Shown: in pieces, positions 12,340 through 56,038 of the stretch | How positions within the stretch are numbered: the stretch's first letter is position 1 | Layout of the letters: the number at the start of each line of letters is the position of its first letter | From: Herbidospora cretacea | GTDB taxonomy: Bacteria > Actinomycetota > Actinomycetes > Streptosporangiales > Streptosporangiaceae | DNA length: 64,000 bases | Assembly (NCBI RefSeq): GCF_001570605.1 | Contig: NZ_BBXG01000029.1 | Coordinates: forward strand, 1-64,000 | Direction of reading: 5' to 3' | Program-made: the position numbers and the translations under genes | The notes under the pieces: generated by a model | Databases searched by the model: none | The model's input: the letters and a program-made list of their open reading frames with translations, nothing else | What the model was told of the DNA's origin: nothing

Positions 12340-12492
12340 CGGCGTACAGACGGCCGGATGTAAGCGCTTCTAGGCTGGGCCGCGTGAAAAGCATTCGAAT
12401 CCGCCGCCCCGTGAGGCCGCGGCCCGGAACGAACCGGGAGATCGACACGCGCACGCCGTCCGGCGTCCATCTGCCTTATTAAGGGAAATGGC

Positions 12493-28816: not shown

Positions 28817-29122
28817 ATGTCAGCGATCGCATACCTCGTCGACTACAACCTGACGTCCGGGCGGGCCTGGTCCCTGGTGGCCGCCGGAGTCGGGCTGGTC
28901 GGGGTGGTGGCCGGGGGGCTCGCGCTGGCCCGGGCCCGGCGGAGGGGGACCGTCGTCGCCCTGGGGGCGGGCCTGGCCGGGGCGGTCGTCGGGGGGCTGG
29001 TGGTGGCCGCCGCGGAAGGCGGGCCCGGCACCGGCTACGGCATCGTCGGCGGCTACCTGGCGGTGGTCGTGGGGCTGGTCGCGATGGCTCTCGGCGGCCT
29101 GGCCAGGGTCCGCACCCGTTAG
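28817..29122 (+). CDS. Small membrane protein (DUF6223-like)
   Basis: A 101-residue protein. ATG 28817 has GGAAGGAG seven bases upstream. Three hydrophobic segments rich in Gly, Val and Ala (about 18-39, 47-66 and 73-94) are separated by RARRRG and GGPGTG. It resembles the short DUF6223 membrane proteins of actinomycetes, by composition and layout only. It ends with a four-base overlap with the converging cysN. There is no evidence of a link to the biosynthetic cluster. Confidence 0.7.
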   Translation: MSAIAYLVDYNLTSGRAWSLVAAGVGLVGVVAGGLALARARRRGTVVALGAGLAGAVVGGLVVAAAEGGPGTGYGIVGGYLAVVVGLVAMALGGLARVRTR

Positions 29123-30276
29123 GCGACCGAGATCATCCCGGCCGAGCGGGTCGCGCCGTCGGCGGGGTCGATCAGCAGGCAGGCGCCCGTGGTCCGGCTG
29201 TCGCCGTAGTCGTCGACGGCCAGGTCGGCGGCGGTGCGGACGACCACGTCGCCGATGTCGTTGATGCCGAGCGAGTCTCCCGGCCCGATCGACGAGACGA
29301 CCGCCTGGACCGTCCGGGTGGTGTGCTTCACCAGGATCTTCTCGCCGACGCGCAGGTCCTTCTCGTGCAGGTGGCAGACGGTGGCGTGGAGTTCGCGGGT
29401 CGCCGGGGGCGCGGTGGCCGCCGGGGCGATCAGGCAGCCCCGGGAGACGTCGAGGTCGTCGGCCAGGCGGACCGCGATCGACTGGGGCGCCCAGGCCGTC
29501 GCGACGGGGTCGCCGAGCACGTCGATGCCGGTCACCGTGGTCGTGTGGCCGCCGGGCTGGACGGTGACCCGCTCGCCGACGCGCAGGATGCCGCCGGTGA
29601 GCTGGCCGGCGTAGGCGCGGCGGCCCCGGGTCTTGATGACGTACTGGACCGGAAGGCGGGCGGGGAGCGCGGTGAGGTCCTCGGAGACCTCGACCGTCTC
29701 CAGGAACTCCATGACGGTCGGGCCGGTGTGCCAGTCCATGTGGGCCGAGGGCACGACCACGTTGTCGCCGGTCAGCGCGGAGATCGGGATGGCGGTGACC
29801 TCGCCGGGGTAGTCGAGGTCACCGGCGATCCGGGCGAAGACCTCCTCCGACCAGCCGACCAGGTCCATCTTGTTGACGGCCAGCACCAGGTGGGGCACCC
29901 GCAGCAGCCCGGCGACGTCGGCGTGCCGCCGGGTCTGGTCGGTCACGCCGTGGCGGGCGTCCACCACCAGGACGACCAGCGAGGCCGTCGACGCGCCGGT
30001 CACCATGTTGCGGGTGTACTGCACGTGGCCCGGGGTGTCGGCCAGGATGAAGCGGCGGCGCGGGGTGGCGAAGTAGCGGTAGGCGACGTCGATGGTGATG
30101 CCCTGTTCCCGTTCGGCCCGCAGGCCGTCGGTCAGCAGGGCCAGGTCGCTGGGCGAGGCGATCTTCTCCAGTTGGTCGGACATGACCGACTTGGAGTCGT
30201 GCAGGAGACGTCCGACCAGAGTGGACTTGCCGTCGTCGACGGAGCCGGCGGTGGCCAGCCGGAGCAGCGTGGACAT
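29119..30276 (-). CDS. cysN: Sulfate adenylyltransferase GTPase subunit CysN
   Basis: A 385-residue GTPase. G1 (TAGSVDDGKST), G2/switch (REQGITIDVAYRYF in blocks), G3 (DTPGH) and G4 (NKMD) are present, followed by two beta-barrel domains of the EF-Tu type. With CysD it makes adenosine 5'-phosphosulfate from ATP and sulfate, driven by GTP. It lacks a fused APS kinase (CysC), so making PAPS for the cluster's sulfotransferase needs an APS kinase from elsewhere. TGATG overlap with cysD upstream. It is the last gene of a six-gene leftward operon that begins with the encapsulin gene. Confidence 0.95.
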   Translation of the reverse strand: MSTLLRLATAGSVDDGKSTLVGRLLHDSKSVMSDQLEKIASPSDLALLTDGLRAEREQGITIDVAYRYFATPRRRFILADTPGHVQYTRNMVTGASTASLVVLVVDARHGVTDQTRRHADVAGLLRVPHLVLAVNKMDLVGWSEEVFARIAGDLDYPGEVTAIPISALTGDNVVVPSAHMDWHTGPTVMEFLETVEVSEDLTALPARLPVQYVIKTRGRRAYAGQLTGGILRVGERVTVQPGGHTTTVTGIDVLGDPVATAWAPQSIAVRLADDLDVSRGCLIAPAATAPPATRELHATVCHLHEKDLRVGEKILVKHTTRTVQAVVSSIGPGDSLGINDIGDVVVRTAADLAVDDYGDSRTTGACLLIDPADGATRSAGMISVA

Positions 30277-31175
30277 CAGAAATACCCTTCTCGTTTGCGG
30301 TCCTCCATGGCGGCCTCGGCCAGCCGGTCGTCGGCCCGGGTCGCGCCGCGCTCGGTGATCCGCGACGCCGCGATCTCCGCGATCACCTCCAGCGGGGTGC
30401 GGGCGGCCGACTCGACCGCGCCGGTGCAGGACATGTCGCCGACCGTCCGGTAGCGGACCGTCCGGCGGACCAGCCGTTCGTCGTGGCCGCCCCACGAACC
30501 GGGGCAGAGCCACATGCCGCGCCGGTCGAACACGTCGCGCTCGTGGGCGTAGTAGATCGGCGGCAAGGCGATGTCCTCGGCCGCGATGTACTGCCAGACG
30601 TCGAGTTCCGTCCAGTTGGACAGCGGGAAGACGCGCACGTGCTCGCCGGGCGTGTGGCGGCCGTTGTAGAGGTTCCACAGCTCGGGGCGCTGGCGGCGGG
30701 GGTCCCAGCCGCCGAACTCGTCGCGCAGCGAGAACACCCGCTCCTTGGCGCGGGCCTTCTCCTCGTCGCGCCGGCCGCCGCCGAAGACGGCGTCGTGGCC
30801 GCCCGACTCGATGGCGTCGAGCAGCGGCGTGGTCTGGAGCCCGTTCCGTTCCGGCACGTCCGGCAGCGCGCCCCGGTCGATGTAGTCCTGCACCGAGGCG
30901 ACGTTCAGCCGCAGGCCCTCGGTGACCCGGTCGCGGAAGGCGATGACCTCGGGGAAGTTGTGGCCGGTGTCGACGTGCAGGAGGGGGAACGGCAGCGGCG
31001 CGGGGGTGAAGGCCTTCAGCGCCAGGTGCAGCATGACGATGGAGTCCTTGCCGCCCGAGAAGAGCAGCACGGGGCGTTCGAACTCGCCGGCGGTCTCGCG
31101 GATGATGTGGACGGCCTCGGCCTCCAGCGTCCGCAGGTGGGTGGTGGCGGCCATCTCCAGTGTCGGGGTCGGCAT
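30276..31175 (-). CDS. cysD: Sulfate adenylyltransferase subunit CysD
   Basis: A 299-residue protein of the PP-loop ATP pyrophosphatase type: LLFSGGKDSIVMLHLAL (blocks at about 37-53), HVDTGHNFPEV, GGGRRDEEKARAKERVFS in blocks, and FPLSNWTELDVWQYI. It is the catalytic subunit that joins sulfate to AMP. ATG 31175 follows GAGGAGGG and overlaps the previous stop (TGATG). In this operon the CysDN pair probably supplies activated sulfate for the sulfotransferase 2.5 kb upstream, a specialised copy apart from the general sulfur-assimilation genes. Confidence 0.95.
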   Translation of the reverse strand: MPTPTLEMAATTHLRTLEAEAVHIIRETAGEFERPVLLFSGGKDSIVMLHLALKAFTPAPLPFPLLHVDTGHNFPEVIAFRDRVTEGLRLNVASVQDYIDRGALPDVPERNGLQTTPLLDAIESGGHDAVFGGGRRDEEKARAKERVFSLRDEFGGWDPRRQRPELWNLYNGRHTPGEHVRVFPLSNWTELDVWQYIAAEDIALPPIYYAHERDVFDRRGMWLCPGSWGGHDERLVRRTVRYRTVGDMSCTGAVESAARTPLEVIAEIAASRITERGATRADDRLAEAAMEDRKREGYF

Positions 31176-33049
31176 CAGGCGGCCCTCCTCATCGTCTGGG
31201 TCCCGGCGGCGATCCATTCGGCGACCGCCCGCGACAGGACCGCGCGGGCCCGCCGGTACTCGCCCGCCTCCAGGTGCTCGTGGGGGGTGTGGTCGAGCTT
31301 GGCGTCGCCGGGGCCGTAGGCCACCATCGGCACCCCCTGCCAGGTCGTGGCCAGGGTGTTCATGTCGCTGGACCCCTTCTTGGCGAGGAACCGGTTGACC
31401 ACGCCCTCGGCCCGGAAGGCCCGCGAGAAGGCCTTGACCAGCGGGCTGGTCCGGGCGGTCAGGTGACCGGGGGTGGCCCGGAGCACCTCGACCTCGACGG
31501 GATGGGCGACCTCCCGCAGGTGGCGGACGAGGTCGTCGAGCGACATCGTCGAGGGGACGCGGACGTCCACGACCGCCTCCCCGCGCTGCACGTCGCCGCC
31601 GTTGACGGCGTGGATCCCCAGCACGGCCAGCAGGGCGTCGGGGCCCTCCTCGGCCAGGCTCGCCCGCAGCCGGGCGAGCACGTCGACCATCTGGTCGGCG
31701 GCCGTGGTGACGCCCTGACCGGCGGTGTGCCCGACGGGGTCGGCGACGCCGATCCGGACCTTCAGCAGGCCGTAGTAGCCGATGGTGAGCGCGCCCGCGC
31801 CCGACGGCTCCCCGATGATGACGGCGTCGGCCCGGTAGTGGTCGCGGACGAAGAACGCGCCCGCCGAGGTGATCTCCTCCTCGACCGCGCCGACCACCCT
31901 GACCTGGGTGTCCGGCGGGACGTCGAGGTCGTGCAGGGTCTCCAGGTAGGCGACCAGGCTGCCCTTGGCGTCGACGCAGCCACGCCCCGAGAGGGTGCCC
32001 CCGTCCCACCGGACCGGCCAGCGGTGGGGGACGGTGTCGAGGTGGCCGAGCATGAGGAGGCTGCGGCGGCCCGACCCCTTCCAGGCCACGAGGTTGCCGG
32101 CCTCGTCGACCTCGGCGTCGATGCCGCGTTCGTGGCACCATCCGGCCAGGTAGTCGGCCAGCTCGCGTTCGTCCCGCGACACCGAGGAGATCTCCACGGC
32201 GCGGGTGAGCAGGGTCAGGTCGTCGGCGGGCGGGTCGGCCCGCCAGAACCGGGTCCCGGCCTCCAGCGAGTGGGGCCCGGTGATGGCGACGTCGGCGGTC
32301 CCGTCGAGGGCGATCTCGGCCGCGCGGACCTTCTGCCGCATGCGGCCCCGGGCGAAGCGCAGGCCCTCGCCCCGGGCGACGTCGGGGATCCCCGACGTGT
32401 CGGCGGCGGGGTCGGCCAGCAGGCCCGGCGTGCCGGTGACCAGCCGCAGGTGGTCGGCGCCGAGCGCGTTGGCCAGCTCGGCGGCCAGCACGTCGGCGTC
32501 GACGTTCAGCGGCGGGCCTCCGTCCGCGGCGGCGGCCGGAGGGGCCACGCAGACGACGTCGAACGCGTCGAGCAGCTGGGCCAGGCACCCGGTCGCGACC
32601 TCGGACACGGTCCCGGCCCGGTGGTCCCTGACGATCACCGACCGGCCTCCCTCGACCGCTCGCAGCGGCGGGTTGGGCCGGGCCGTCACCAGCGAACCGG
32701 CGTGGGCGGTCGAGGTGAAGCAGGTCAGCCCGCGTGAGGTCAGCGCCTCGCGGACGCGGGGCAGGGTGACCCGCTCGTAGGCGGCCACGATGTGGTCCAT
32801 CTCCTCGGGCGGGCAGTAGCGCGCCGTGGCGCCGTTCTTCAGGTCGAGGCTGCGGACCGGGCGTCCGATCGCCTCGTAGTGGGCCGCGATGCCGGCCGCG
32901 CCGCCCGCCACCAGGAGGATCTTCGCGCCGCGGCCGCGCAGGCGGGCCACTTCGTCGAAGACCGTCTCATGGGCGAGGCTCGCGCTGCCGATCTTGACAA
33001 CGTAGAGGGCCGCCGTATGGGTGGTGGCGACCTCGCCGAGCACAGACAC
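31175..33049 (-). CDS. LysZ-LysK fusion: carrier-bound amino acid kinase plus M20 hydrolase
   Basis: A 624-residue two-domain protein. Residues about 1-255 are an amino-acid kinase of the ArgB/LysZ family: VVKIGSASLA, LVAGGAAGIAA, LKNGATARYC, LNVDADVLAAELANALGA in blocks. Residues about 275-624 are a zinc M20 peptidase like LysK/ArgE: metal ligands in MLGHLDTVP and GCVDAKGS, catalytic Glu pair in AVEEEITS. In the LysW pathway the kinase phosphorylates the side-chain carboxylate of the carrier-bound glutamate, and the peptidase frees the finished amino acid. Relatives are separate proteins, so the fusion is unusual. Start GTG 33049 (AGGAG ten bases upstream) is preferred to GTG 33058, which overlaps the previous stop but abuts the ribosome site. 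Confidence 0.88.
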   Translation of the reverse strand: MSVLGEVATTHTAALYVVKIGSASLAHETVFDEVARLRGRGAKILLVAGGAAGIAAHYEAIGRPVRSLDLKNGATARYCPPEEMDHIVAAYERVTLPRVREALTSRGLTCFTSTAHAGSLVTARPNPPLRAVEGGRSVIVRDHRAGTVSEVATGCLAQLLDAFDVVCVAPPAAAADGGPPLNVDADVLAAELANALGADHLRLVTGTPGLLADPAADTSGIPDVARGEGLRFARGRMRQKVRAAEIALDGTADVAITGPHSLEAGTRFWRADPPADDLTLLTRAVEISSVSRDERELADYLAGWCHERGIDAEVDEAGNLVAWKGSGRRSLLMLGHLDTVPHRWPVRWDGGTLSGRGCVDAKGSLVAYLETLHDLDVPPDTQVRVVGAVEEEITSAGAFFVRDHYRADAVIIGEPSGAGALTIGYYGLLKVRIGVADPVGHTAGQGVTTAADQMVDVLARLRASLAEEGPDALLAVLGIHAVNGGDVQRGEAVVDVRVPSTMSLDDLVRHLREVAHPVEVEVLRATPGHLTARTSPLVKAFSRAFRAEGVVNRFLAKKGSSDMNTLATTWQGVPMVAYGPGDAKLDHTPHEHLEAGEYRRARAVLSRAVAEWIAAGTQTMRRAA

Positions 33050-33054
33050 GAAAT

Positions 33055-33822
33055 TCACACTCCTCTGGTGTTGCCGCCGTCGGCGACGAAGACCGTCCCG
33101 GTGACGTAGGAGGCCTGGTCGCTGACGAGGAAGGCGGCCAGGGCGCCGAAGTCGTCGACGTCCCCGATCCGGCCCAGCGGGATCCGCCGGGCGACCTGGG
33201 CCAGCTCGTCCTCGACGGCGTCGCCGAACTGCTCGTCCAGGATCGGGGTCCGATGGAAGCCGGGGGCCAGCACGTTCACCGTCACCCCGCTCGCTCCCAG
33301 CGCGCCGACCAGGCCCTTCATGTAGCCGAGCAGGCCCAGCCGGGCCACCGACGACAGGCCGCTCTCGGGGTGGGGCTGCTTGACCGACTCGGAGGCGATC
33401 ATCAGCACCCTGCCCCAGCCGCCCTTCTTGAGGTGGGGCAGCGCGGCCAGGGTCAGCGCGATGTGCGGGATCAGGTTGGCGTCGAGGGCGGCGCGGTAGT
33501 CGGCCACGCCGAACGCGTCGACCGGGCCGAACGGCACGCCGCCCGAGTTGGTCACGATGATGTCGATGCCGCCCAGGGTGGCGGCGGTGTCGCGGACCCA
33601 GGCGGCGGCGGCGTTCTCGTCGCACAGGTCCACCGGGACGCTCAGCACGTCGCCGTCGCCCATCGCGCTCACCTCGACGTGGGCGCGGGCCAGCTTGCCG
33701 GGGTCGCGTCCGCAGATGGCGACGCTGGCCCCCTCGGCGGCCAGGGCCTTGGCGACGCCCAGGCCGAGGCCGCTGCTGGAGCAGGCCACCATGGCGACGC
33801 GCCCTTTGAGCCGCAGATCCAT
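33055..33822 (-). CDS. SDR-family protein without the usual Tyr-x-x-x-Lys
   Basis: A 255-residue Rossmann protein. The cofactor loop reads ACSSSGLGLGVAKAL, a variant of TGxxxGxG found in one SDR subgroup, followed by NSGG. The catalytic Ser is in MIASES, but at the YxxxK position it has SSVARLGLLG, so Tyr and Lys are absent; this subgroup is known in actinomycetes with unclear chemistry. Shine-Dalgarno GGGGAAAGTC precedes ATG 33822, 10 bp after the sulfotransferase stop. By context it would act on the keto-sugar-like side chain made by the transketolase, but the missing Tyr makes reduction uncertain; it could be an epimerase-like or structural protein. Confidence 0.85.
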   Translation of the reverse strand: MDLRLKGRVAMVACSSSGLGLGVAKALAAEGASVAICGRDPGKLARAHVEVSAMGDGDVLSVPVDLCDENAAAAWVRDTAATLGGIDIIVTNSGGVPFGPVDAFGVADYRAALDANLIPHIALTLAALPHLKKGGWGRVLMIASESVKQPHPESGLSSVARLGLLGYMKGLVGALGASGVTVNVLAPGFHRTPILDEQFGDAVEDELAQVARRIPLGRIGDVDDFGALAAFLVSDQASYVTGTVFVADGGNTRGV

Positions 33823-33832
33823 GACTTTCCCC

Positions 33833-34747
33833 TCAGGTCAGAATCGGATAGCCGTACCGGCCGAGCAGCGGGAGCGCGGGGCCGGTGGCGGCGGCGCGGG
33901 CGTGGGCCGGCAGGCCCGTGCGCCAGCGCTCGTCGGCGCGGATGCGCGCCGGACCGGCCGACAGCCGGTCGGGGTTGCCGGTGACCGTGTGGTTCACGCT
34001 CAGCACGACGTTGCCGTCCGCGTCGGCGGGCGGCTCGTCGTCGAGACCGGCGAAGGAGAGCACCCGGGCGAGCGTCCCGCGCGGGTCGCGGCACAGGTCC
34101 TCGTGGCGGACCCGCAGGTAGCGGTCGGGCGCGGCGTGGCCGGACAGTTCGGAGGCCAGGTTGAAGCCGGTCCAGAAGCCGCTGCTGCGCGCGGGGCTCA
34201 TCGGGTCGATGTAGTCCTTGGCCTTCGCGTAGGAGAAGGCGGTCGCGCGCGGGTCGCGGACCATGTGCAGCACCTTCACGTCGAGGTCGGCGCGGCCCAG
34301 CAGGGCCGCCGCCTCGGCCGGGAACTTCGAGCCGTCGACGATGAGGCGCTCGCCGCCGTGCGCGGCGAGGGTCCGGTAGATCGCGGCGGTACGGCCGACC
34401 GCCTGCGCCACCCCCGGAGCCGTGGCGGTCCGGCCGGTCGACTCGGCGATCCGGTCGCGCGTGTGGCGGGTGCGGAGCAGCGCCCGCTGCTGGAGCGTCA
34501 TCAGCCGCGCCTCGCCCAGCCGATCACCACCGGTGGAGGTGATCACCTTCGACCACAGGTCGCAGGCGGTGACGTCGGCGCCGCAGCCGCAGGTGGAGTT
34601 GGTGCCGGCCTTGAGGATGCCGTTCTGCCACAGGTAGTGCAGCTCGCCGACGTGCAGCACGCCGGGCAGCTCGCCTAGGACGTTGCCGAGCATGGTGCTG
34701 CCGCTGCGCAGCCAGCCGGTGATGTAGAGGACGCGCGGCTCACCCAT
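33833..34747 (-). CDS. PAPS-dependent sulfotransferase
   Basis: A 304-residue protein. The 5'-phosphosulfate loop is ITGWLRSGSTMLGNVLG (about 9-25), and VRDPRATAFSYAKAK with RVRHEDLC serve the 3'-phosphate-binding role. A CGCG motif near residue 54 suggests a metal or structural site. It overlaps the encapsulin gene by 8 bp. In azinomycin-, ficellomycin- and vazabitide-type pathways, O-sulfation of a carrier-bound amino acid sets up displacement of sulfate by an amine. Here it probably sulfates a hydroxyl on the LysW-bound chain. The donor PAPS is supported by CysD and CysN in the same operon. Confidence 0.9.
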   Translation of the reverse strand: MGEPRVLYITGWLRSGSTMLGNVLGELPGVLHVGELHYLWQNGILKAGTNSTCGCGADVTACDLWSKVITSTGGDRLGEARLMTLQQRALLRTRHTRDRIAESTGRTATAPGVAQAVGRTAAIYRTLAAHGGERLIVDGSKFPAEAAALLGRADLDVKVLHMVRDPRATAFSYAKAKDYIDPMSPARSSGFWTGFNLASELSGHAAPDRYLRVRHEDLCRDPRGTLARVLSFAGLDDEPPADADGNVVLSVNHTVTGNPDRLSAGPARIRADERWRTGLPAHARAAATGPALPLLGRYGYPILT

Positions 34748-35564
34748 GCCACTTCACCGCCATCAGGTGCTGCGGCAGGTGCACCGCCAGCCCGATCCGG
34801 GAGGTGGCCCTGACCGCGCCGGGAACCAGCTCGATCGAGGCGACGCCCGGCATGAGCAGCGTGCAGGCGGCCCGGAAGTCGCCCATGAGCAGGGTGTCCT
34901 TCGGCATCATGCGGGTCCGCGAGACGGTGATGCCGGAGTTCTGGAACCGGGCCAGCAGGTCGTCGCGGACCATCTTCCAGTACGTCTCGGGATGCGCCAC
35001 CACGCCGTCGCAGGAGCCGCCGGTCTCCTCGATCTCCCCGGCGGCCCGGGTGACGGTGGTGGCCAGGTCGTCGTGGCTCTCCGCCGAGCGGCTGCCCGGC
35101 AGACCCAGCAGGCCGGTGATGGCCCCGTCGGCGGTGCCGTGCAGCAGGGACTCGTTCTCGACGACGGAGAGACGTACCAGAACGCGGTAGTCCACATAGG
35201 CGGCGAGCAGCGCGGGATCGGCGGCGACGCCGTCGGGGAGCGGGACCTCGACGGAGAGGTCGGTCAGCGGCGCTTTCATCAGCCGGGGCGCGAAAGCGGC
35301 CTCCGGGGTGGCGTCATAAGCGGTTCCGGCGCTCTCCAGCCGGCCTTTCGGCGGTTCGTGGACGTAGGCGACGGAATCGTCGGCGACGTCGGCCGTCTTC
35401 AGCAGGTGCCGGACGGTGTAGCGCGGCCGGGCCGCGAACAGCGGGAACGCGGCCGGAAGGTGCAGGTCGAACGGGACCGCGCGGGCCCCGGCGGCCACCT
35501 CGGCGGCGAACCGCTCCCCGGGCGACCCCAGAGCCGGGAGTTCTTGCAGGGCTGTCGCTCGCAT
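34740..35564 (-). CDS. Family 3 (natural-product) encapsulin shell protein, HK97 fold
   Basis: A 274-residue protein behind AGGAGGG, first gene of the leftward operon. The pattern is that of HK97-type capsid proteins. An N-arm and E-loop lie at about 45-110. A long P-domain helix ends ENESLLHGTADGAITGLLGL (about 143-162). The A-domain contains CDGVVAHPETYWKM, then ITVSRTRMMPKDTLLMGDF, and finally ATSRIGLAVHLPQHLMAV. Encapsulins self-assemble into closed protein shells that hold enzymes. Family 3 was defined by genome mining as shells encoded within biosynthetic clusters. No phage genes surround it, and its tight overlap with the sulfotransferase argues for a shell, not a prophage relic. Cargo could be any operon protein; I see no obvious shared targeting peptide. 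Confidence 0.82.
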   Translation of the reverse strand: MRATALQELPALGSPGERFAAEVAAGARAVPFDLHLPAAFPLFAARPRYTVRHLLKTADVADDSVAYVHEPPKGRLESAGTAYDATPEAAFAPRLMKAPLTDLSVEVPLPDGVAADPALLAAYVDYRVLVRLSVVENESLLHGTADGAITGLLGLPGSRSAESHDDLATTVTRAAGEIEETGGSCDGVVAHPETYWKMVRDDLLARFQNSGITVSRTRMMPKDTLLMGDFRAACTLLMPGVASIELVPGAVRATSRIGLAVHLPQHLMAVKWHG

Positions 35565-35789
35565 GAGCCCTCCTAATGGGATATACGACTCCAGCCGAGC
35601 TTAATAATTCACCGAATACATTTCTTCCGTCCGGCGAGTAGGAGCGCTTATGCTCTGAGGACGACGTGTTTATATGGCCCCCGATAAGCGCGGGAATTCA
35701 CTTCGATCGGCAACCCTTATTGGCGATTCACCGCCGATTCTGGTTACGGTTGAAATGCCGAAATTCCCCCGACGACAGAGGGACGAGCC
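35565..35789. promoter_or_regulatory. Divergent promoter region between encapsulin and lysW operons
   Basis: This 225-bp region is relatively AT-rich and must carry promoters for both arms of the carrier-protein pathway. On the minus strand TATATC lies at 35584-35579, and AGGAGGG precedes the encapsulin ATG. On the plus strand TTGGCG and GGTTACGGT lie upstream of lysW. I do not see the TTACC-N17-GGTAA dyad found at the exporter and monooxygenase genes. Confidence 0.5.
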
Positions 35790-35972
35790 ATGCAGAACGT
35801 TGTGAACGCCCCCGAGTGTCCCGAGTGCGCGGCACAGGTCTCCATCGACGCCGACGCCCGGGTGAGCGAGATCGTCGAATGCCTCGACTGCCGCAGTGAA
35901 CTGGAGATCGCCTCCGTCACGCCGCCGTCCCTGACGATCGCCCCCGAGGTCGAGGAGGACTGGGGAGAGTGA
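35790..35972 (+). CDS. lysW: LysW-type amino-group carrier protein
   Basis: A 60-residue acidic protein. Two Cys pairs, CPEC and CLDC, form the zinc knuckle, and the C-terminus EEDWGE matches the conserved ExWGE end whose last Glu is linked through its side chain to the amino group of the substrate. It protects and carries a growing amino acid between enzymes. In primary metabolism it serves lysine or arginine synthesis; in actinomycete clusters (vazabitide A, azinomycin, ficellomycin) it makes unusual diamino acids. Its stop overlaps the lysX start (TGATG). It starts a plus-strand operon of seven genes. Confidence 0.95.
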   Translation: MQNVVNAPECPECAAQVSIDADARVSEIVECLDCRSELEIASVTPPSLTIAPEVEEDWGE

Positions 35973-36820
35973 TGAACTCCGACACCCGCCTCGCCGTGCT
36001 CGCGTCACGGGTGCGGTTCGAGGAGAAGCAGATCATGGCCGCGCTCGACCGGCGCGGCGTCTCGTTCGTCCACCTCGATCCCCGGTCGCTCGTCGTCAGC
36101 GACGACACGCGCCAGGACCTGACGGTGCTCAACCGCGAGATCGGGCACTACCGGGCCCTCTACGCCGCCAGTGCGCTGGAGTCGGCGGGGGCGGCGGTCC
36201 TCAACACCGCCGCCGCCACCCACGTCAGCGGCGACAAGTGGCTGACGACCTCGGCTCTCATGGCCAAGGGCCTGCCGACCCCCCGCACGGCCCTGGCCAT
36301 GACGCCGGAGGCGGCCCACGACGCCCTCGACCAGATCGGCTACCCGGCCGTGGTGAAACCGCTGGTCGGCTCGTGGGGACGCCTGGTCACCGCGATCCCC
36401 GACCGGGCCACCGCCGTGGGGATCCTCGAACACGTCGCGGCGCTGCCCTCGCCCCAGCAGCACATCGTCTACGTGCAGGAACTCGTCGAGAAGGCCGACC
36501 GGGACATCCGGGTGCTGGTCGTCGGCGGGGAGGCGCTGGGCGCGACCTACCGGCGCGGCGACGAGTGGCGCACCAACGTCGCCCGCGGCGCCGTGTCCGT
36601 GAAGTGCGACCTGACCAACGTCCACGCGAAGCTCGCCGTGGCCGCCGCCGAGGCGGTGGGCGCCGAGATCGCTGGGGTCGACCTGCTGGAGGACGCCGAC
36701 GGCCACCTGACGGTGCTGGAGGTCAACGACCGGGTCGAGTTCCGGGGCTTCCAGGACGCCCACGAGATCGACGTCGCCGACGTCATCGCCTCCTACGCGA
36801 TCGCGAGGGCAGAGGCATGA
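35972..36820 (+). CDS. lysX: LysX-type ATP-grasp ligase
   Basis: A 282-residue RimK-like ATP-grasp protein. KPLVGSWGRLVT is the small ATP loop, VQELVEKADRDIRVLVV and GVDLLEDADGHLTVLEVND (in blocks) carry the metal-binding Asp, Glu and Asn. It joins the alpha-amino group of an amino acid, probably glutamate, to the C-terminal Glu side chain of LysW using ATP. The start is ATG 35972 within TGATG; a GTG three bases earlier is also in frame. Substrate choice between glutamate and 2-aminoadipate cannot be read securely; the VNDRVEF region near the end is where the specificity motif lies. Confidence 0.93.
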   Translation: MNSDTRLAVLASRVRFEEKQIMAALDRRGVSFVHLDPRSLVVSDDTRQDLTVLNREIGHYRALYAASALESAGAAVLNTAAATHVSGDKWLTTSALMAKGLPTPRTALAMTPEAAHDALDQIGYPAVVKPLVGSWGRLVTAIPDRATAVGILEHVAALPSPQQHIVYVQELVEKADRDIRVLVVGGEALGATYRRGDEWRTNVARGAVSVKCDLTNVHAKLAVAAAEAVGAEIAGVDLLEDADGHLTVLEVNDRVEFRGFQDAHEIDVADVIASYAIARAEA

Positions 36821-37851
36821 TCCGATGCGCCGTCGTGGGAGGCGCCGGCTACATCGGCGGCGAACTCCTGCGCATCCTCACCGGGCACCCCTCGGCCGAG
36901 CTGACGGCCGCCACCTCACGGCGGCTGCGCGGCCGGCTGATCGACGGGGCCCACCCCAACCTGCGTGGCCGCACCCGGCTGTCCTTCGTCTCCGAGGAGG
37001 AGCTCGACCAGGACGGCCCCTACGACGTGCTGTTCCTGGCCACGCCCCACCGCGAGACCATGCGGCGGATGCCCGAGTTCCTCGGGCTGGCCGCGACCGT
37101 GATCGACCTGTCCGGCGACTTCCGCCTGCACGACCCCAAGGTCTACGCCGACTATTACGGCGTCGACCACGTGGCCCCCGACCTGATCGGGACCTTCACC
37201 ACGGGCGTGCCGGAGCTGCACCGCGAGGAGCTGCAGAAGTCGAGCCGCATCAGCGTGCCCGGGTGCATGGCCAACGCCGGCATCCTGGCGCTGACCCCGC
37301 TGGCCGAGGCCGGGCTCATCCACGGCGAGCTGTCCGTGGACGCCCGCACCGGGTCGAGCGGCGCCGGCGCGACCGCCGGGGCGGAGAACCTGCACGCCGA
37401 ACGCAGCGGCGCCCTGCGCGTCTTCGCGCCCACCCGCCACCGCCACGAGGCGGAGATCTCCCAGGCCACCGGCCTGCCGGTCCGCATGCGGGCCACCGGG
37501 ATCGAGGCGGTCCGCGGTGTGCAGCTCGTCTGCACGGCCCCGCTGACCGAGGGCACCGAGGAGCGCGCGATCCGGGCGGCCTACCGCGACCGGTACGCCG
37601 ACGAGCACTTCGTGCGGGTCGTCGCCCACCGGCGCGGGCTGCACCGCTTCCCGGACGCCAAGATCCTCTCCGGCTCGAACTTCTGCGACGTCGGTTTCGC
37701 CCTCGACGCCGGGTCGACCACGGTCACCGTGATCGCGGCCCTGGACAACCTCGTCAAGGGCGGCGCCGGGAACGCCGTGCAGTGCATGAACATCCGCCAC
37801 GGCCGTCCCGAACGCGAAGGCCTGGAGTTCGTGGGCCTGCACCCCAACTAG
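36817..37851 (+). CDS. lysY: LysY-type carrier-bound acyl-phosphate reductase
   Basis: A 344-residue ArgC/LysY reductase. The Rossmann loop is VVGGAGYIGGELLRIL (about 5-20), the catalytic Cys is in SVPGCMANAGILAL (about 150), and the C-terminal KGGAGNAVQCMN closes the fold. It reduces the phosphorylated side chain on LysW to an aldehyde with NADPH. That aldehyde would be the acceptor for the transketolase encoded next. ATGA overlap with lysX. Confidence 0.95.
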   Translation: MIRCAVVGGAGYIGGELLRILTGHPSAELTAATSRRLRGRLIDGAHPNLRGRTRLSFVSEEELDQDGPYDVLFLATPHRETMRRMPEFLGLAATVIDLSGDFRLHDPKVYADYYGVDHVAPDLIGTFTTGVPELHREELQKSSRISVPGCMANAGILALTPLAEAGLIHGELSVDARTGSSGAGATAGAENLHAERSGALRVFAPTRHRHEAEISQATGLPVRMRATGIEAVRGVQLVCTAPLTEGTEERAIRAAYRDRYADEHFVRVVAHRRGLHRFPDAKILSGSNFCDVGFALDAGSTTVTVIAALDNLVKGGAGNAVQCMNIRHGRPEREGLEFVGLHPN

Positions 37852-37859
37852 GAGTCTCG

Positions 37860-38702
37860 ATGACCACCACCATCGGTGCCCCCCAGGACCTGGGCACGGC
37901 GGCCGGGACCGCCGCCCGGATCAGGGAGCACATCGTCAACCTGTGCGCCAGCCCCGAGGGCGGCCACCTGGGCGGCTCGATGTCGCTCGCGGAGATCCTC
38001 GCGACCCTCTACACGCGGGTGCTGCGGGTCGATCCGTCCCGGCCCGGGGCCGTCGAAAGGGACATCCTGCTGCTCAGCAAGGGGCACGGCGGCCTGGCGC
38101 TCTACGCGGCGCTGACCGAGGCCGGTTTCTTCCCGGCGACCCGGCTCAACGAGTACGCGCAGCCGGGCAGCGAGTTCATGGCCCACCCCCACGCCGAGAT
38201 CCCCGGCGTCGAGATGCCCTCCGGGTCGCTCGGCCACGGGCTGGCGCTGGCGGTCGGGTTCGGGCTCGGGTTCCGGCTCGACGGCGCGGACCGGCGGTGC
38301 TTCGTCGTCATGGGTGACGGCGAGCTCCAGGAGGGCTCCGTCTGGGAGGCCGCCTCGGTGGCCGCCGCCCAGCGCCTCGACAGCGTCGTCGCGATCGTCG
38401 ACCGCAACCGGCTCCAGATCACCGGCGGGACCGAGACGATCGACGCGCTCGAACCGCTGGCCGACCGGTGGTCGGCCTTCGGCTGGTCGGTACGCGAGGT
38501 CGACGGCCACTCGGTGGAGGAACTCGAGGCCGCGCTGACCGAGCCGCCGGTCCCCGGCCGCCCGACCGTCGTGATCGCCCGGACCGTGAAGGGCAAGGGC
38601 ATCCCGTTCGTCGAGGACCAGCCGCGCAGCCACTACGCCAAGCTCGGCGAACGGCAGCACGCCAAGGCCCTCGCCGCGCTCCGGAGAGGAGCCGTGTCAT
38701 GA
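37860..38702 (+). CDS. Transketolase N-terminal (TPP-binding) subunit
   Basis: A 280-residue protein. The TPP motif is GDGELQEGSVWEAA with VDRN (about 155-190), preceded by SKGHGGLALYAAL and SGSLGHGLALAVG in blocks. It is one half of a split transketolase; the other half follows with an ATGA overlap. In the carrier-protein pathways for vazabitide and azinomycin a split transketolase adds a two-carbon ketol unit to the LysW-bound glutamate semialdehyde, giving a seven-carbon chain. The same role is inferred here from the neighbours. Confidence 0.93.
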   Translation: MTTTIGAPQDLGTAAGTAARIREHIVNLCASPEGGHLGGSMSLAEILATLYTRVLRVDPSRPGAVERDILLLSKGHGGLALYAALTEAGFFPATRLNEYAQPGSEFMAHPHAEIPGVEMPSGSLGHGLALAVGFGLGFRLDGADRRCFVVMGDGELQEGSVWEAASVAAAQRLDSVVAIVDRNRLQITGGTETIDALEPLADRWSAFGWSVREVDGHSVEELEAALTEPPVPGRPTVVIARTVKGKGIPFVEDQPRSHYAKLGERQHAKALAALRRGAVS

Positions 38703-39625
38703 GCCCCTCCTCCCGTGAGGTCTACCGGGACGCCGTCCTGGACCTGCTCCCCCGCGACGACCGGCTGGTCTGCCTCGACTCCGACACCGGCCTGTTCGAC
38801 GCCGCGAAGTTCCCCGAGCGCTACGTCAACCTCGGCATCGCCGAGCACACGCTGATGGGCGCGGCGGCCGGGCTGGCCAAGTCGGGCCGGATCCCGCTGG
38901 TCAACACGATGGCGGCGTTCGCGTCGTCGCGCGCCAACGAGGCCGTGAAGATCGACATCGCCCTCAACAACCTGCCGGTGCGGATCGCCGGGACCCACTC
39001 GGGCGTGTCCGCCGGGCACCTCGGGCCGACCCACCACGCGCTGGAGGACCTGGCCGTGATGCGGGCGCTGCCCAACATGACCGTGGTCGTGCCGGCCGAC
39101 GGCCCGCAGACCGGGACCCTGTTCCGGCAGTCGCTGGGCGTCAACGGCCCCGTCTACCTGCGGCTCGGCCGCAACGCGACCCCGGAGATCCCCGACGCGC
39201 CGCCGGTCAGGCTCGGCCTGGCGCAGGTGCTCAGGGATGGCGCCGACGTGACGCTGGCGGCCTGCGGGCCCTACCCGGTGATCGCCGCCCTCGACGCCGC
39301 CGACCTCTTGGAGCAGGAGGGCGTCCGCGCGTCGGTGCTCAACGTCCACACCGTCAAGCCCCTGGACGTCGCCACGATCGCCGCCCACGCCCGGCGCTCC
39401 GGCGTGGTGGTCACCGTCGAGGAACACTGGCGCAACGCCGGGTTCGGGTCGGCCGTGGCCGAGTCGCTGGCGGAGATCACCCCCAGCCTGGTGCTCCGGG
39501 TTGCGATGCCGGACGCGTTCGTCCCCGTCGCCGGCGGGCAGCGGTATCTCGCCGAGCGCGGCGGCGTCACCGCCGCCTCGGTCGCGGCCAGGGCACGAGC
39601 GGCTCTTGGGAGGGATCCGCGATGA
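38699..39625 (+). CDS. Transketolase C-terminal subunit
   Basis: A 308-residue protein with the pyrimidine-binding domain (NLGIAEHTLMGAAAGLA carrying the catalytic Glu, AFASSRANEAVKIDIA, GPTHHALEDLAVMRALPNM in blocks) and the transketolase C-terminal domain (VLNVHTVKPLD, VEEHWRNAGFG). With the preceding subunit it makes a complete enzyme. ATGA overlaps at both ends show tight coupling. Confidence 0.94.
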   Translation: MSPSSREVYRDAVLDLLPRDDRLVCLDSDTGLFDAAKFPERYVNLGIAEHTLMGAAAGLAKSGRIPLVNTMAAFASSRANEAVKIDIALNNLPVRIAGTHSGVSAGHLGPTHHALEDLAVMRALPNMTVVVPADGPQTGTLFRQSLGVNGPVYLRLGRNATPEIPDAPPVRLGLAQVLRDGADVTLAACGPYPVIAALDAADLLEQEGVRASVLNVHTVKPLDVATIAAHARRSGVVVTVEEHWRNAGFGSAVAESLAEITPSLVLRVAMPDAFVPVAGGQRYLAERGGVTAASVAARARAALGRDPR

Positions 39626-41085
39626 CCGTCATGGACGACCTGCGCGGACACCCGCGCGGCAAGCTCGCCCTGGTCTGCTACCAGGACGGCACGGCCGTCG
39701 AACTGACCTACGGCGACCTGCTCGACCGAGTCGACCGCATGGCCACCCTGCTGCACCGCCTCGGTGTGGCCAAGGGCCAGGTCGTGACGCTCCAGCTGCC
39801 CAACTCGTGGCAGCTCGCGGCGCTGATCCTGGCGTGCTACCGGATCGGGGCGATCCCCGGCCCGGTCGTGCCGATCATGCGGCGGCGTGAGGTCCAGTTC
39901 ATGCTGAACCTGACCGAGAGCCCCGTCTACATCGCGCGCCGCGAGTTCCGCGGCTTCTCGTACAAGGACATGATCGCCTCCGTGGACGCGCCGAAGCTGC
40001 GTCACACCCTGTTCGCCGAGGAGCTGTCCCTGCCGGAGAGCGACCTCGACGGCGTCACCGAGTCGGGCCCCGGCGACCCCGCCCAGGTGGCCTTCACCTC
40101 CGGGACGACCGGGGAGCCGAAGGGCGTCGTGCACAGCCACGACACCCTCCACGCGATGAACCGGGCCCAGGCCGACGTGCTCCACCTGACCGCCGACGTC
40201 GTCACGGCCATGGGGTCGCCGACGACGCACCAGGCCGGGTTCACCTGGAACCTGATCATGCCGCTGCTGCTCGGCGGCACCGCGGTCCACGTCGAGTCGT
40301 GGGACGCCGACCGGATGCTCGACATCCTCCAGGAGCGCCGGGTGACCTTCTTCATGGGCGCCCCGACCTTCCTGTCCGACCTCATCGAGACCCAGTCCGC
40401 CCGGCCGCGCGATCTGAGCGCCCTGGCGACGTTCGCGACCGGCAGCGCGCCCATCGCGCCCTACCTGGTCGAACGCGCCCGCGACGTGCTCGGCTGCCGC
40501 CTCTACGCCCTGTGGGGGATGACCGAGAACGGCTGCGTCACCATCACCCGTCCCGAGGACCCGCCGATGCGGGCCGCCGAGAGCGACGGCACGGTCGTGC
40601 CCGGCATGGAGGTGCGGATCGCCGAGGGCGGCCGGCTCCAGGTCAGGGGCGCGTCCCAGTGCCTGGGCTACTTCCGGCGCGAGCACGTCTACCAGGCGTG
40701 CCTCACCGACGATGGCTGGTTCGACACCGGCGACCTGGCCCGCGACGACGGGCACGGCGGCATCCGGATCACCGGCCGCGTGAAGGACGTCATCATGCGC
40801 GGCGCGGAGAACATCCCCGTCGTCGAGGTCGAGAACGCGCTGCTCCGGCACGACGCGGTCCGCGACGTCGCGGTGGTCGGCTACCCCGATCCCCGGCTCG
40901 GCGAGCGGGCCTGCGCGGTGATGGTGGCCTCCCCCGCTCCGAGCCTCGACGACCTGCGGGTGCACCTGGCCGGGCTCGGGATGGCCAAGCAGTACTGGCC
41001 GGAACGGCTGGAGATCGTCGGTTCCCTGCCGCGCACGCCGTCCGGGAAGATCCAGAAGTTCGCGCTGCGGGAGGGGCTGCGATGA
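39622..41085 (+). CDS. Acyl-CoA ligase (ANL family)
   Basis: A 487-residue adenylating enzyme. Core motifs are FTSGTTGEPKGVVHSH (A3, about 154), LWGMTENG (A5), DGWFDTGDLARDD (A7), GRVKDVIMRG (A8) and the late Lys in PRTPSGKIQKF. It resembles medium-chain or cyclic-acid CoA ligases. Followed with an ATGA overlap by an acyl-CoA dehydrogenase, it probably activates a small carboxylic acid for desaturation and attachment. The substrate is unknown; it might be the released amino acid or a separate acyl unit. Confidence 0.9.
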   Translation: MTVMDDLRGHPRGKLALVCYQDGTAVELTYGDLLDRVDRMATLLHRLGVAKGQVVTLQLPNSWQLAALILACYRIGAIPGPVVPIMRRREVQFMLNLTESPVYIARREFRGFSYKDMIASVDAPKLRHTLFAEELSLPESDLDGVTESGPGDPAQVAFTSGTTGEPKGVVHSHDTLHAMNRAQADVLHLTADVVTAMGSPTTHQAGFTWNLIMPLLLGGTAVHVESWDADRMLDILQERRVTFFMGAPTFLSDLIETQSARPRDLSALATFATGSAPIAPYLVERARDVLGCRLYALWGMTENGCVTITRPEDPPMRAAESDGTVVPGMEVRIAEGGRLQVRGASQCLGYFRREHVYQACLTDDGWFDTGDLARDDGHGGIRITGRVKDVIMRGAENIPVVEVENALLRHDAVRDVAVVGYPDPRLGERACAVMVASPAPSLDDLRVHLAGLGMAKQYWPERLEIVGSLPRTPSGKIQKFALREGLR

Positions 41086-42221
41086 ACACCGACTTCACAC
41101 CCCAGCAGGAGACGCTGGCCAAACGGGTCCGCGAGTTCGCCGCCGACCGCGTCGCGCCCTTCCGGGCCGAGAGCGACCGGCGGGCCGAATACCGTCCGGG
41201 CCTGCTGGCCGACATGGCGGCCGAGGGGCTGTTCTCCTTACGCGTCCCCGAGGAGTTCGGCGGCCAGGGCCTCGACGCGGTCAGCGCCGGCATCGTGCTG
41301 GAGGAGCTAGCGGCGGCCGACCTGTCGGTCTGCTACCCGGTGCTCAACGCGGCGCTGGTCGGCGGCGTGCTGGCCGCCAACGGGACCCCGGCCCAGCTGG
41401 CCCGGTGGCTGCCGGGCATCGCCGCCGGGACGTCCGTCGTCGCCCTCGGCCTGACCGAGGCCGGCCACGGGACCGACGCGGCGGCCATCGAGACCGCCGG
41501 GGAGCACTTCCCCGACGGCTGGCGGCTGACCGGCGAGAAGACCTCCATCATGGCCACCGCCTACGCCACCCACGCCCTGCTGTTCGCCCGCACGGGCGGC
41601 CCGGGGGCGCGCGGGATCAGCGCCTTCTACACCCCCCTCCACGGCGTCCGCCGGGAGCTCCACTCCGACCTGGGCTGCCGGGCGGGCGGGCGCGGCCGGT
41701 TCACCCTCGACGGCCTGCACGTCGCCAACGACGACCTCGTCGGACGGCCGGGCGCGGGATTCGTCGAGGTCATGCGCGGCTTCGGGGTGTCCCGGGCGCT
41801 GATCTCCCTGATGGCCATCGCCGTCGGCCAGGCCGCGCTGGACGAGGCGATGGCCTACGCCGGACGGCGGGAGGCCTTCGGCCGGCCGATCGGGAAGTTC
41901 CAGTCGGTCGCGTTCCCCCTGGTCGAACACGCCACGATGCTGCACGCCGCGCGCCTGGTCTCCTACGAGGCCCTGGCCGCCGCCGACGCGGGGCGCGACC
42001 CGCGCCTGCCCGCGAACATGGCGAAGTGGTGGGCCCCCAAGGCCGCCATGGAGGCGGTCCACCAGTCGCTCCTCACGATGGGCCACGTCGGCTGGTCGGA
42101 GGACGGCCCGGTGGCCCAGCGCCTCCGCGACGTCATCGGCCTGCAACTGGCCGACGGCACCGCCGCCGCGACCAAACTGGTCGTCGCCCGCCATCTGCTG
42201 GGACGGGAGGCGGCACCGTGA
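41082..42221 (+). CDS. Acyl-CoA dehydrogenase-like flavoprotein
   Basis: A 379-residue FAD enzyme. ALGLTEAGHGTDAAA is the FAD/substrate loop, GGRGRFTLDGLHV the beta domain, AGRREAFGRPIGKFQSV (with the flavin Arg) the C-terminal helices. The usual catalytic Glu position near the end reads MGHVGWSEDGPVAQ, where many members have GxxGYxxExP; Ser-Glu-Asp is a fair equivalent. It would introduce a double bond in an acyl-CoA or act on a carrier-bound acid. A rare TTA codon lies at 41238-41240. Last gene of the plus-strand operon; it ends 18 bp from the converging CGNR gene. Confidence 0.9.
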   Translation: MNTDFTPQQETLAKRVREFAADRVAPFRAESDRRAEYRPGLLADMAAEGLFSLRVPEEFGGQGLDAVSAGIVLEELAAADLSVCYPVLNAALVGGVLAANGTPAQLARWLPGIAAGTSVVALGLTEAGHGTDAAAIETAGEHFPDGWRLTGEKTSIMATAYATHALLFARTGGPGARGISAFYTPLHGVRRELHSDLGCRAGGRGRFTLDGLHVANDDLVGRPGAGFVEVMRGFGVSRALISLMAIAVGQAALDEAMAYAGRREAFGRPIGKFQSVAFPLVEHATMLHAARLVSYEALAAADAGRDPRLPANMAKWWAPKAAMEAVHQSLLTMGHVGWSEDGPVAQRLRDVIGLQLADGTAAATKLVVARHLLGREAAP

Positions 42222-42238: not shown

Positions 42239-42793
42239 TCAGCGCGCCGGCCGGTCGGCCGTGCCCCGGCGGTAGGTGCGCATCTTCGCGCGGGTGCCGC
42301 AGACGGCCATCGAGCACCAGCGGCTGCCCCGGTTCCGGGACCGGTCGTAGAAGGCCCACTCGCACCGCTGCTCGCGGCAGGTCTTCAGCCGGGACCACGA
42401 ACCGTCGGCCACGGCCGAGGCGACCGCGCCGAGGACCGTCGCGAAGACGCCGCGCAGATCCTGCTGGGCCGGGCGCAGGCCGAGGGTCTCGCCCGACAGC
42501 ACCAGCGGGCAGTCACGGGCGACGTGGCCGATCGTCAGCCGCGCCTCCCGGTCGGGGGCCGAGCCGTTGTTCTCGCGGAGCACGGCGCGCAGCGCCTCCC
42601 GCAGGGTGACGGCGTCGCGCCGGTCGAGCTCGCCTACAGCGGCCGAGAGGCCGTGGCGGGCGAGCCAGCGCTCCACCCCTTCGGCCGTGGCGAACTCGTC
42701 GGGCCCGAACTCCACATTGACGCTGTTCACGAACGACTGGACCAGCGCCAGCGGGCCCGGCGCGGTCTCCCTGTCTCCCGGCTGACCTTTCAC
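42239..42793 (-). CDS. CGNR zinc-finger transcriptional regulator
   Basis: A 184-residue protein. The N-terminal ABATE-like domain (about 10-110) includes LALVQSFVNSVNVEF. The C-terminal CGNR finger has Cys at CREQRCEWAFYDRSRNRGSRWC in blocks and MAVCGTRAKM, where CGNR is CGTR. GTG 42793 is only 3 bp from an inverted repeat, so translation may begin near the transcript start; the frame stays open further up but has no better start. It is divergent from the MFS exporter and probably represses it and itself through that dyad. The same dyad 1.5 kb away suggests it also controls the aromatic half of the cluster. Confidence 0.88.
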   Translation of the reverse strand: MKGQPGDRETAPGPLALVQSFVNSVNVEFGPDEFATAEGVERWLARHGLSAAVGELDRRDAVTLREALRAVLRENNGSAPDREARLTIGHVARDCPLVLSGETLGLRPAQQDLRGVFATVLGAVASAVADGSWSRLKTCREQRCEWAFYDRSRNRGSRWCSMAVCGTRAKMRTYRRGTADRPAR

Positions 42794-44296: not shown

Positions 44297-44339
44297 CTTC
44301 ATAAACAGCGCTAATCGAGACGCCATTGTTTGCCCGTAG

Positions 44340-44366
44340 TTACCGCCATAGCGTGGAAAGCGGTAA
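44340..44366 (+). promoter_or_regulatory. TTACC-N17-GGTAA dyad before the aromatic operon
   Basis: The arms TTACCGC and GCGGTAA (GTTACCGC/GCGGTAAC including the flanking bases 44339 and 44367) end 16 bp before the monooxygenase ATG. Length and half-sites equal those of the exporter dyad at 42796-42822, so one regulator probably binds both, and the CGNR protein is the best candidate. Confidence 0.7.
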
Positions 44367-44382
44367 CAGCGAAAGGACGGAC

Positions 44383-47700: not shown

Positions 47701-47702
47701 AA

Positions 47703-47765
47703 GCGAGACGCGGACGGCCGAAGGCCGGCCGTGGCTCGCGCTGTGAACCTGCCCAATAGACAGGA
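47703..47765 (+). repeat. Cluster leader repeat, copy A (hairpin plus conserved tail)
   Basis: A 63-bp element 86 percent identical to 55965-56027. It starts 3 bp after the DAHP synthase stop. Bases 1-37 fold into a near-complete hairpin (GCGAG-A-CGCGG-A-CGGCC against GGCCG-G-CCGTG-G-CTCGC), with an A-G mismatch and one G-U pair relative to copy B. The tail CTGCCCAATAGACAGGA contains the ribosome site for the NRPS gene. Confidence 0.8.
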
Positions 47766-47772
47766 CTTGATC

Positions 47773-49878: not shown

Positions 49879-49885
49879 GGACGGC

Positions 49886-56027: not shown

Positions 56028-56038
56028 GCTGTTCAACC

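Follow-up and report, generated by a model that had tools for sequence, protein, structure and literature searches.

Positions 1 to 64,000 of contig NZ_BBXG01000029.1 of Herbidospora cretacea (NCBI RefSeq assembly GCF_001570605.1), here called the window, encode an HK97-fold protein of 274 residues (34740–35564, minus strand) that by its profile match is a true Family 3 encapsulin, in a cluster of an already known kind that combines a LysW-type amino-group carrier with sulfation genes. What is new here is that shell loci of the LysW/transketolase type, judged by sequence searches, exclude AziU3, AziU2, and the DegT-type aminotransferase found in their shell-less counterparts; in this setting, the shell stands where the counterparts have the aminotransferase and, mostly, the aziridine synthase. 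We read the cluster as one that would make a reduced, sulfated seven-carbon (C7) imino acid, with the shell either housing the sulfation step or holding the sulfated electrophile, and put the probability of this reading at about 45%. Its observed basis is the gene content, the predicted HK97 fold, a near-universal sulfotransferase neighbour, and the exclusion of the aminotransferase and AziU2/AziU3 in the loci compared. Labels beginning with L and G are our names for individual loci and genomes.

The shell protein matched the curated family NF041188 at 330.9 bits (cut-off 180; 4.6e-99), and its predicted structure was a whole HK97 fold at high confidence, as a first-pass annotation of the window had anticipated. 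The ratio of nonsynonymous to synonymous substitution rates (dN/dS) was 0.11–0.15 against three Herbidospora relatives, indicating purifying selection on the shell gene. Twenty residues were invariant across 44 shell sequences, including R48, R52, E70, E88, R127, and R131. Residues 11–24 comprised a largely conserved N-terminal S-P-G motif and a helix, with P15 and G16 invariant in the same 44 sequences. The structural alignment began with model residue 14 paired to HK97 residue 76, which presumably lies in the portion removed on maturation, and in the model the N-terminal motif may face the interior. The H. cretacea genome also encodes a Family 1 encapsulin on contig 16 (L001; PF04454, 1.1e-95).

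The neighbourhood of the shell gene was surveyed across the order, where NF041188 matches were found in 81 of 345 genomes, 70 of them above the cut-off. Eighty regions around shell genes, 80 named loci, and the window gave 114 distinct loci after merging identical ones; 37 of these came only from the named set and were not chosen via NF041188, and the four named and four unnamed shell proteins that were scanned all passed. In 113 of the 114 loci, the shell gene had a sulfotransferase no more than 6 kb away, and in 101 no more than 5 kb away, with search seeds for the sulfotransferase and the short-chain dehydrogenase/reductase (SDR) drawn from the same loci. In the sole exception (L111), the shell gene is about 800 bases from the contig end. 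Since 16 genomes held 6–14 PF13469 matches each, we estimate that a sulfotransferase neighbour would be expected by chance in roughly 1–2% of loci. This near-constant neighbour is a new observation, and it upholds the first-pass identification of a Family 3 encapsulin in a LysW-type, sulfation-linked cluster.

An SDR or an aldo/keto reductase was present within 8 kb in 110 of the 114 loci (all but L084, L089, L090, and L111), a presence that means less because SDRs are common. The nearest pair consisted of a PF13469-type sulfotransferase and an SDR in 91 loci and of a PF19798-type sulfotransferase and an aldo/keto reductase in 19, the Pfam type of each pair being checked on one representative apiece. 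As the two pairs are unrelated, the pairing is one of function, not descent. Also new is that the columns of the catalytic Tyr and Lys held Ser and Arg in all 86 shell-linked SDRs aligned (those longer than 190 residues and within 8 kb, from 86 of the 114 loci), with the Ser kept. The solved SDR 5va8 has the same Tyr/Lys change by its printed alignment, so the change marks an existing SDR subfamily and is not specific to the shell.

LysX and LysY occurred together in 43 shell loci, accompanied by LysW in 43/43 and by transketolase in 42/43; the locus without transketolase (L128) is on a short contig, and its map stops after LysY. Shell-less relatives were sought with the window LysY in 342 genomes, which yielded 50 places, 28 on shell contigs and 22 others, all of which were fetched. 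Three of the 22 (L246, L247, and L249) were dropped from the shell-less counts, being on short contigs of genomes with the shell on another contig. LysW, transketolase, and a DegT-type aminotransferase were present in all 19 remaining loci. AziU3 accompanied by AziU2 occurred in 14, and of these two L253 gave only a weak match to AziU2. Two AziU3 copies matched the AziU3 entry of the PDB (7wuw; 1.2e-82, and 6.8e-71 for the copy from the H. cretacea genome), one AziU2 copy was matched to its PDB protein (6.3e-52), and the remaining copies were assigned by similarity to these. AziU2 and AziU3 were reportedly given a role in azinomycin aziridine closure in 2022, which fits the PDB names.

None of the 43 LysX/LysY shell loci gave a tblastn match to AziU3, AziU2, or the DegT aminotransferase, and AziU2 and AziU3 had no tblastn match in the 64 kb of the window. 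No aminotransferase was found among the called genes at 29–59 kb of the window, all of which were scanned by profile. Within 30 kb of the shell, PF00202 was absent in five other genomes and PF00155 in four, the nearest match being about 33 kb away (G232). The H. cretacea genome has a shell cluster on contig 29 and an AziU-type one on contig 8, which means that the exclusion holds within single clusters, not within genomes. Its second LysW/transketolase cluster (L235; contig 8, 192500–212400) carries AziU2, AziU3, a DegT aminotransferase (PF01041), and a PF19798 sulfotransferase, and is a predicted aziridine pathway without a shell. A second type of shell locus, with a very distant LysY (L064, L100, L105, and L132), has the same gene combination. 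The LysY tree as drawn has at least five changes between shell and AziU modes, of which the starred branches force only one, and we do not claim many such switches.

From this gene content, a route can be proposed. Glutamate would be extended on the LysW-type carrier by LysX, LysZ, and LysY, and the split transketolase, which is what suggests a C7 skeleton, would add two carbons to give a 5,7-dihydroxy-6-oxo amino acid of seven carbons. The SDR-like protein would then reduce the C6 carbonyl or, once LysK has released the substrate, the cyclic imine that this carbonyl could form with the alpha-amine. Reduction via the cyclic imine would yield 5-hydroxy-6-hydroxymethylpipecolate, which by analogy would have the skeleton of the chloromyxamide residue, consistent with the proposal. 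A hydroxyl would then be sulfated by the PF13469 sulfotransferase, with 3'-phosphoadenosine 5'-phosphosulfate (PAPS) supplied by CysDN; because LysK is encoded in the same operon, sulfation may follow release from the carrier. The product, of the 5-hydroxy-6-(sulfo-oxymethyl)pipecolate type, would be a beta-amino sulfate and an electrophile. Sulfation would take place inside the shell, or else the shell would retain the sulfated electrophile up to its displacement or its coupling to an aryl (benzoxazole) partner. Skeleton, step order, and sulfation site are thus predicted, as are the assembly, cargo, and role of the shell.

If this is true, a shell containing a sulfate-activated electrophile would be a protein compartment that renders leaving-group chemistry safe. 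Across cluster types, and with two unrelated enzyme sets, the comparison of loci links the shell to a single kind of chemistry, sulfation, and it yields a predicted substrate class and product skeleton, so that the role of the shell becomes testable. A bolder version would make the Family 3 encapsulin an alternative to AziU2/AziU3, a virus-derived nanocompartment that makes, closes, or stores a sulfate-activated alkylating imino acid and lets sulfate serve as a biosynthetic leaving group that does not poison the cell. No Family 3 system, on any substrate, would then do without the sulfotransferase; we regard this version as possible though doubtful.

Several observations weigh against a shell-enclosed sulfation of a C7 imino acid. 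A complete LysX and LysY pair was lacking in 71 of the 114 shell loci, some of them cut by contig ends, and the C7 skeleton therefore cannot be general. Two loci (L089 and L090) had no SDR or aldo/keto reductase although their flanks were long enough. With the Tyr/Lys pair gone in 86/86 sequences, reductase activity of the SDR is doubtful, though an imine that is already protonated might accept hydride without help from the Tyr. The search behind the missing aminotransferase used DegT seeds from shell-less loci over about 10 kb on each side of the shell, and the other aminotransferase classes were covered in the window and a few genomes. No targeting tail was seen by eye in the sampled ends of the sulfotransferase, SDR, ST5, and aldo/keto reductase proteins, or in seven enzymes (LysW, LysX, LysY, LysZ, LysK, and the two transketolase halves) compared between shell and shell-less loci, with gene starts from a simple in-house caller; sampled DegT and DAO protein ends likewise showed none. 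Finally, AlkZ (PF06224) was not near the shell in any of 21 judgeable genomes, despite copies in 22/22 (in G345, the shell is on a short contig and could not be judged); self-resistance to a DNA alkylator through AlkZ was accordingly set aside. The first-pass proposal that the shell confines LysW-bound intermediates was not borne out either, with LysK in the same operon and no cargo signal found.

An unlikely alternative to a contained electrophile is that enzymes, one or several, are enclosed in the shell purely for the sake of channelling or flux, for instance by keeping PAPS or 3'-phosphoadenosine 5'-phosphate (PAP) local. It would account for the sulfotransferase being the one near-constant partner over unrelated cluster types and for the many Family 3 loci without a LysW/transketolase module. 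Ordinary sulfotransferases, however, function without shells, and an ST5-family sulfotransferase (PF19798 checked on one) is encoded in 10 of the 19 LysY/transketolase loci that lack a shell. It is improbable that the HK97-fold protein has given up shell formation to work, as a soluble enzyme or chaperone, on the sulfated intermediate in place of AziU2/AziU3: no catalytic HK97 protein is known, a whole HK97 fold is confidently predicted, and the 20 invariant residues, which with the cluster-level exclusion of AziU2/AziU3 speak for such a function, may be structural. We give as little credence to a particle that stores or exports a finished toxic product. Major facilitator superfamily (MFS) transporters in many of the mapped clusters would fit export, but they would also make such a particle redundant; there was no release module among the genes scanned, and encapsulins are described as carrying enzyme cargo in the text of PMC8346489. 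A prophage remnant or hitch-hiking capsid gene without pathway function is scarcely credible: phage HK97 is indeed closest by fold and profile, but the gene is under purifying selection and kept in 114 distinct loci, its neighbours in the window scan as a biosynthetic cluster and not as phage genes, and viral contigs yielded no relative and PHROG families no match. Homologues of prophage type, which the first-pass annotation had named as evidence against itself, were thus not seen, the terminase and portal genes themselves not having been searched for in the neighbourhoods.

In the window, the genes named by the first-pass annotation were all present on the strands it gave, according to open reading frame (ORF) calls and profile scans; coordinates are those of the ORFs, with starts corrected for some genes, such as LysZ-LysK and CysN. 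On the minus strand, the shell gene overlaps by 8 bases that of the sulfotransferase (Sulfotransfer_3; 33833–34747; PF13469, 1.4e-14), from which 10 bases separate the SDR-like gene (33055–33822; PF13561, 1.2e-42), whose active-site columns hold Ser/Arg. These are followed by a LysZ-LysK fusion (31175–33058), a carrier-bound substrate kinase and a carrier hydrolase in a single chain (PF00696 and PF01546). The fusion scored above the cut-off for TIGR01902 (279.8 bits, cut-off 163.1) but below it for NF003367 (289.9 vs. 363) and NF010659 (125.8 vs. 223). Next are the ATP sulfurylase subunits, a CysD-like small subunit (30276–31175; PF01507, 1.7e-42) and a CysN-like GTPase subunit (29119–30276, start corrected; PF00009, 2e-40), coupled by 1-base overlaps; the profile scan of the CysN-like protein gave no adenosine 5'-phosphosulfate (APS) kinase domain.

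The divergent plus-strand run, with 4-base overlaps at most couplings, begins with the LysW-type carrier protein (35790–35972; 60 residues, C-terminal EDWGE), which scored 51.4 bits for PF21344 (cut-off 27) and 51.9 for TIGR01206, slightly below the cut-off of 53.2. It continues with a LysX-type ATP-grasp ligase (35969–36820; TIGR02144, 267.8 bits, cut-off 275.6; TIGR00768, 246, cut-off 143.4) and a LysY/ArgC-type semialdehyde-forming reductase (36817–37851; TIGR01850 argC, 335.4 bits, cut-off 233.6; PF22698 and PF01118). The N-terminal (37860–38702; PF00456, 1.5e-42) and C-terminal (38699–39625; PF02779 and PF02780) halves of transketolase, an acyl-CoA ligase-like adenylating enzyme (39622–41085; PF00501, 6.6e-70; TIGR03208, 464.3 bits, under the cut-off of 792.3), and an acyl-CoA dehydrogenase-like flavoprotein (41082–42221; PF00441, PF02771, and PF02770) complete it. 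A LysY-transketolase fusion, suspected from an ORF at 36825–38702, was rejected, LysY being in another frame and the transketolase half starting at 37860. Beyond the run lie an ABATE/CGNR zinc-finger regulator (42239–42793, minus strand; PF11706 and PF07336), which recurs in maps of the compared loci (families f31/f26), and an MFS transporter (42848–44248, plus strand; PF07690, 2.5e-50).

The same gene order was kept in all five other Herbidospora loci fetched, which together with the NF041188 match leaves little room for chance. The first-pass limits of 29119–42221 proved too narrow: rightward, conservation of the cluster continues up to about 58.5 kb, and 4.5–13.4 kb holds a linked module. 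The first-pass interpretation is supported in part: a Family 3 encapsulin does lie in a LysW-type cluster linked to sulfation, but confinement of LysW-bound intermediates was not borne out, and the gene overlaps, from whose ATGA-type couplings it drew fixed ratios of shell and enzymes, suggest translational coupling at most. It had also missed the step from transketolase to a C7 skeleton, the shell-less counterpart of azinomycin/vazabitide type, and the two further modules described below.

A further new finding in the window is that the shell cluster extends into a benzoxazole cassette of caboxamycin type (44326–58506, plus strand), with a thiazole/oxazole-modified microcin (TOMM) module nearby. 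The cassette starts with a flavin-dependent (FAD) monooxygenase resembling 3-hydroxybenzoate 6-monooxygenase (44326–45618; PF01494; NF006021, 418.5 bits, under the cut-off of 459), a KAS III-like acyltransferase (45605–46642; PF08541/PF08545), a DAHP synthase of PF00793 type (cbxF function; 46630–47700; 1.7e-76), and an adenylation enzyme with a carrier domain (47731–49878; PF00501 and PF00550). Then come a salicylate synthase (cbxA function; 49886–51190; TIGR03494, 440.5 bits, cut-off 325.15), a KAS III-like protein (cbxB; 51187–52167; PF08541/PF08545), an AMP ligase (cbxC; 52164–53699; PF00501, 2.2e-63), an acyl carrier protein (cbxD; 53696–53923; PF00550, 7.9e-9), an amidohydrolase (cbxE; 53920–55269; PF01979, 3.7e-36), an SDR at the place of cbxG (dihydro-dihydroxybenzoate dehydrogenase function; 55266–55964; PF13561, 3.6e-49), an isochorismatase (cbxH; 56039–56662; PF00857, 3.8e-38), and a protein like anthranilate or 2-amino-2-desoxyisochorismate (ADIC) synthase (cbxI; 56656–58506; PF00425 and PF00117, with NCBIfam anthranilate synthase models below cut-off).

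All functions of cbxA-I are thus represented, as judged by family against the published table of PMC5481532 and not by direct sequence comparison, and by that table A-B-C-D-E followed by G-H-I stand in the same order in both clusters. In contrast to the caboxamycin cluster as tabulated there, where cbxF is called class II, the window has its DAHP synthase, of PF00793 type, upstream; it adds a second KAS III and an adenylation–peptidyl carrier protein (A-PCP), and its cassette adjoins the shell/LysW module. Actinokineospora pegani (L202 and L203) and Streptomyces sp. SirexAA-E (L193) also have the cassette next to the shell cluster, although in the latter the fetched stretch stops short of the salicylate synthase. 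This recurrence suggests a single large cluster in which a benzoxazole acid is probably coupled to the amino acid linked with the shell.

The TOMM module (4459–13359) contains a SagB-type dehydrogenase (7401–8849, minus strand; TIGR03605, 143.7 bits, cut-off 78.4), a YcaO cyclodehydratase with a leader-binding domain (8873–10795, minus strand; PF02624, 4.4e-83; TIGR03882, 99.1 bits, cut-off 36.9; TIGR03604, 200.1, under the cut-off of 219.25), and a candidate precursor peptide ending in KWTYCG (12017–12208, minus strand; TIGR04351, 45.8 bits, under the cut-off of 65) that was 84–90% identical in the four other Herbidospora stretches read there. A response regulator, a histidine kinase, and a LysR regulator complete it; the LysR family is a neighbour of the TOMM module in Herbidospora, and its place in Streptomyces is between shell and LysW. 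The window shares with TOMM modules a YcaO with leader binding, a SagB-type dehydrogenase, and a nitrile-hydratase-like small peptide, but roughly 24 kb containing unrelated genes separate its module from the shell gene.

A YcaO was near the shell in 16 of 36 shell-bearing genomes searched, spanning Herbidospora, Nonomuraea, Streptomyces, Actinokineospora, and two further genera, at distances of 15–38 kb in 6/6 Herbidospora, 8.5–9.8 kb in two Nonomuraea, about 8 kb in five Streptomyces, and 21–42 kb in G322, G351, and G217. Fourteen of these 16 fell into one clade (SH-aLRT 100), together with a single unlinked sequence from a Pseudonocardia genome that is itself shell-bearing. A shell-less Herbidospora genome (G043) had no YcaO of the TOMM-module type. 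The 20 other shell-bearing genomes had no such YcaO nearby and six had none at all; an unrelated-looking YcaO lies about 25 kb from the shell in G242, and those of G345 and G352 are on other contigs. A matching SagB dehydrogenase (51–54% identity) was found in five genomes without a shell match (G156, G173, G150, G192, and G160). With most other shell genomes lacking the module and close SagB relatives occurring without a shell, we did not take it as a proven part of the pathway and keep it as a linked module.

Other peptide-related genes accompany some shell loci. Seven (L076, L078, L079, L087, L088, L089, and L090) carry a LanM-like protein (DUF4135 and LANC-like, scanned in L078) and have nearby genes for a DegT aminotransferase and for a glycyl-tRNA synthetase with fused alpha and beta parts (scanned in L089), the latter perhaps a copy for self-resistance. 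In Actinomadura, L039 and the shell loci related to it (f17) combine the LysW/transketolase/shell set with neighbouring LanB N-domain proteins (scanned in L039) and KAS III, some of them also with asparagine synthase-like genes.

The closest described systems are the Family 3 'natural product' encapsulins of Andreas and Giessen (2021; PMC8346489), the main text of which describes 132 systems in six cluster classes, with sulfotransferases, SDRs, nonribosomal peptide or polyketide synthases (NRPS/PKS), and LysW-like carriers. The window shares with them the family NF041188, the sulfotransferase, the SDR, and the LysW-like carrier, and the association of shell, sulfotransferase, and LysW is therefore not itself new. 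That text proposes that SDR and sulfotransferase act successively to give sulfated hydroxyls and names a single studied cluster, that of the chloromyxamides (peptides of 6-chloromethyl-5-methoxypipecolic acid), for which it gives the role of the encapsulin as unknown. Our search of later literature, most subscription papers lying outside it, found no title on Family 3 function. The words transketolase, YcaO, RiPP, and cyclodehydratase are absent from the main text of PMC8346489, to which the present comparison would add the exclusion of AziU2/AziU3 and the aminotransferase, the pair of ST5 sulfotransferase and aldo/keto reductase, the residue change in the SDR, and the benzoxazole cassette. 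In azinomycin biosynthesis, as outlined in the relevant part of PMC9570651, the transketolase product is transaminated to 2,6-diamino-5,7-dihydroxyheptanoic acid (DADH) and sulfated, and the neighbouring amine displaces the sulfate to form the aziridine. Clusters of the azinomycin/vazabitide type, by the LysW or the N-acetyl route, share with the window LysW, LysX, LysY, LysZ, LysK, the split transketolase, and sulfation. In contrast to them, the window cluster lacks the aminotransferase and AziU2/AziU3, as judged by the profile scans and tblastn searches, and has instead a sulfotransferase of a different family, together with an SDR and a shell.

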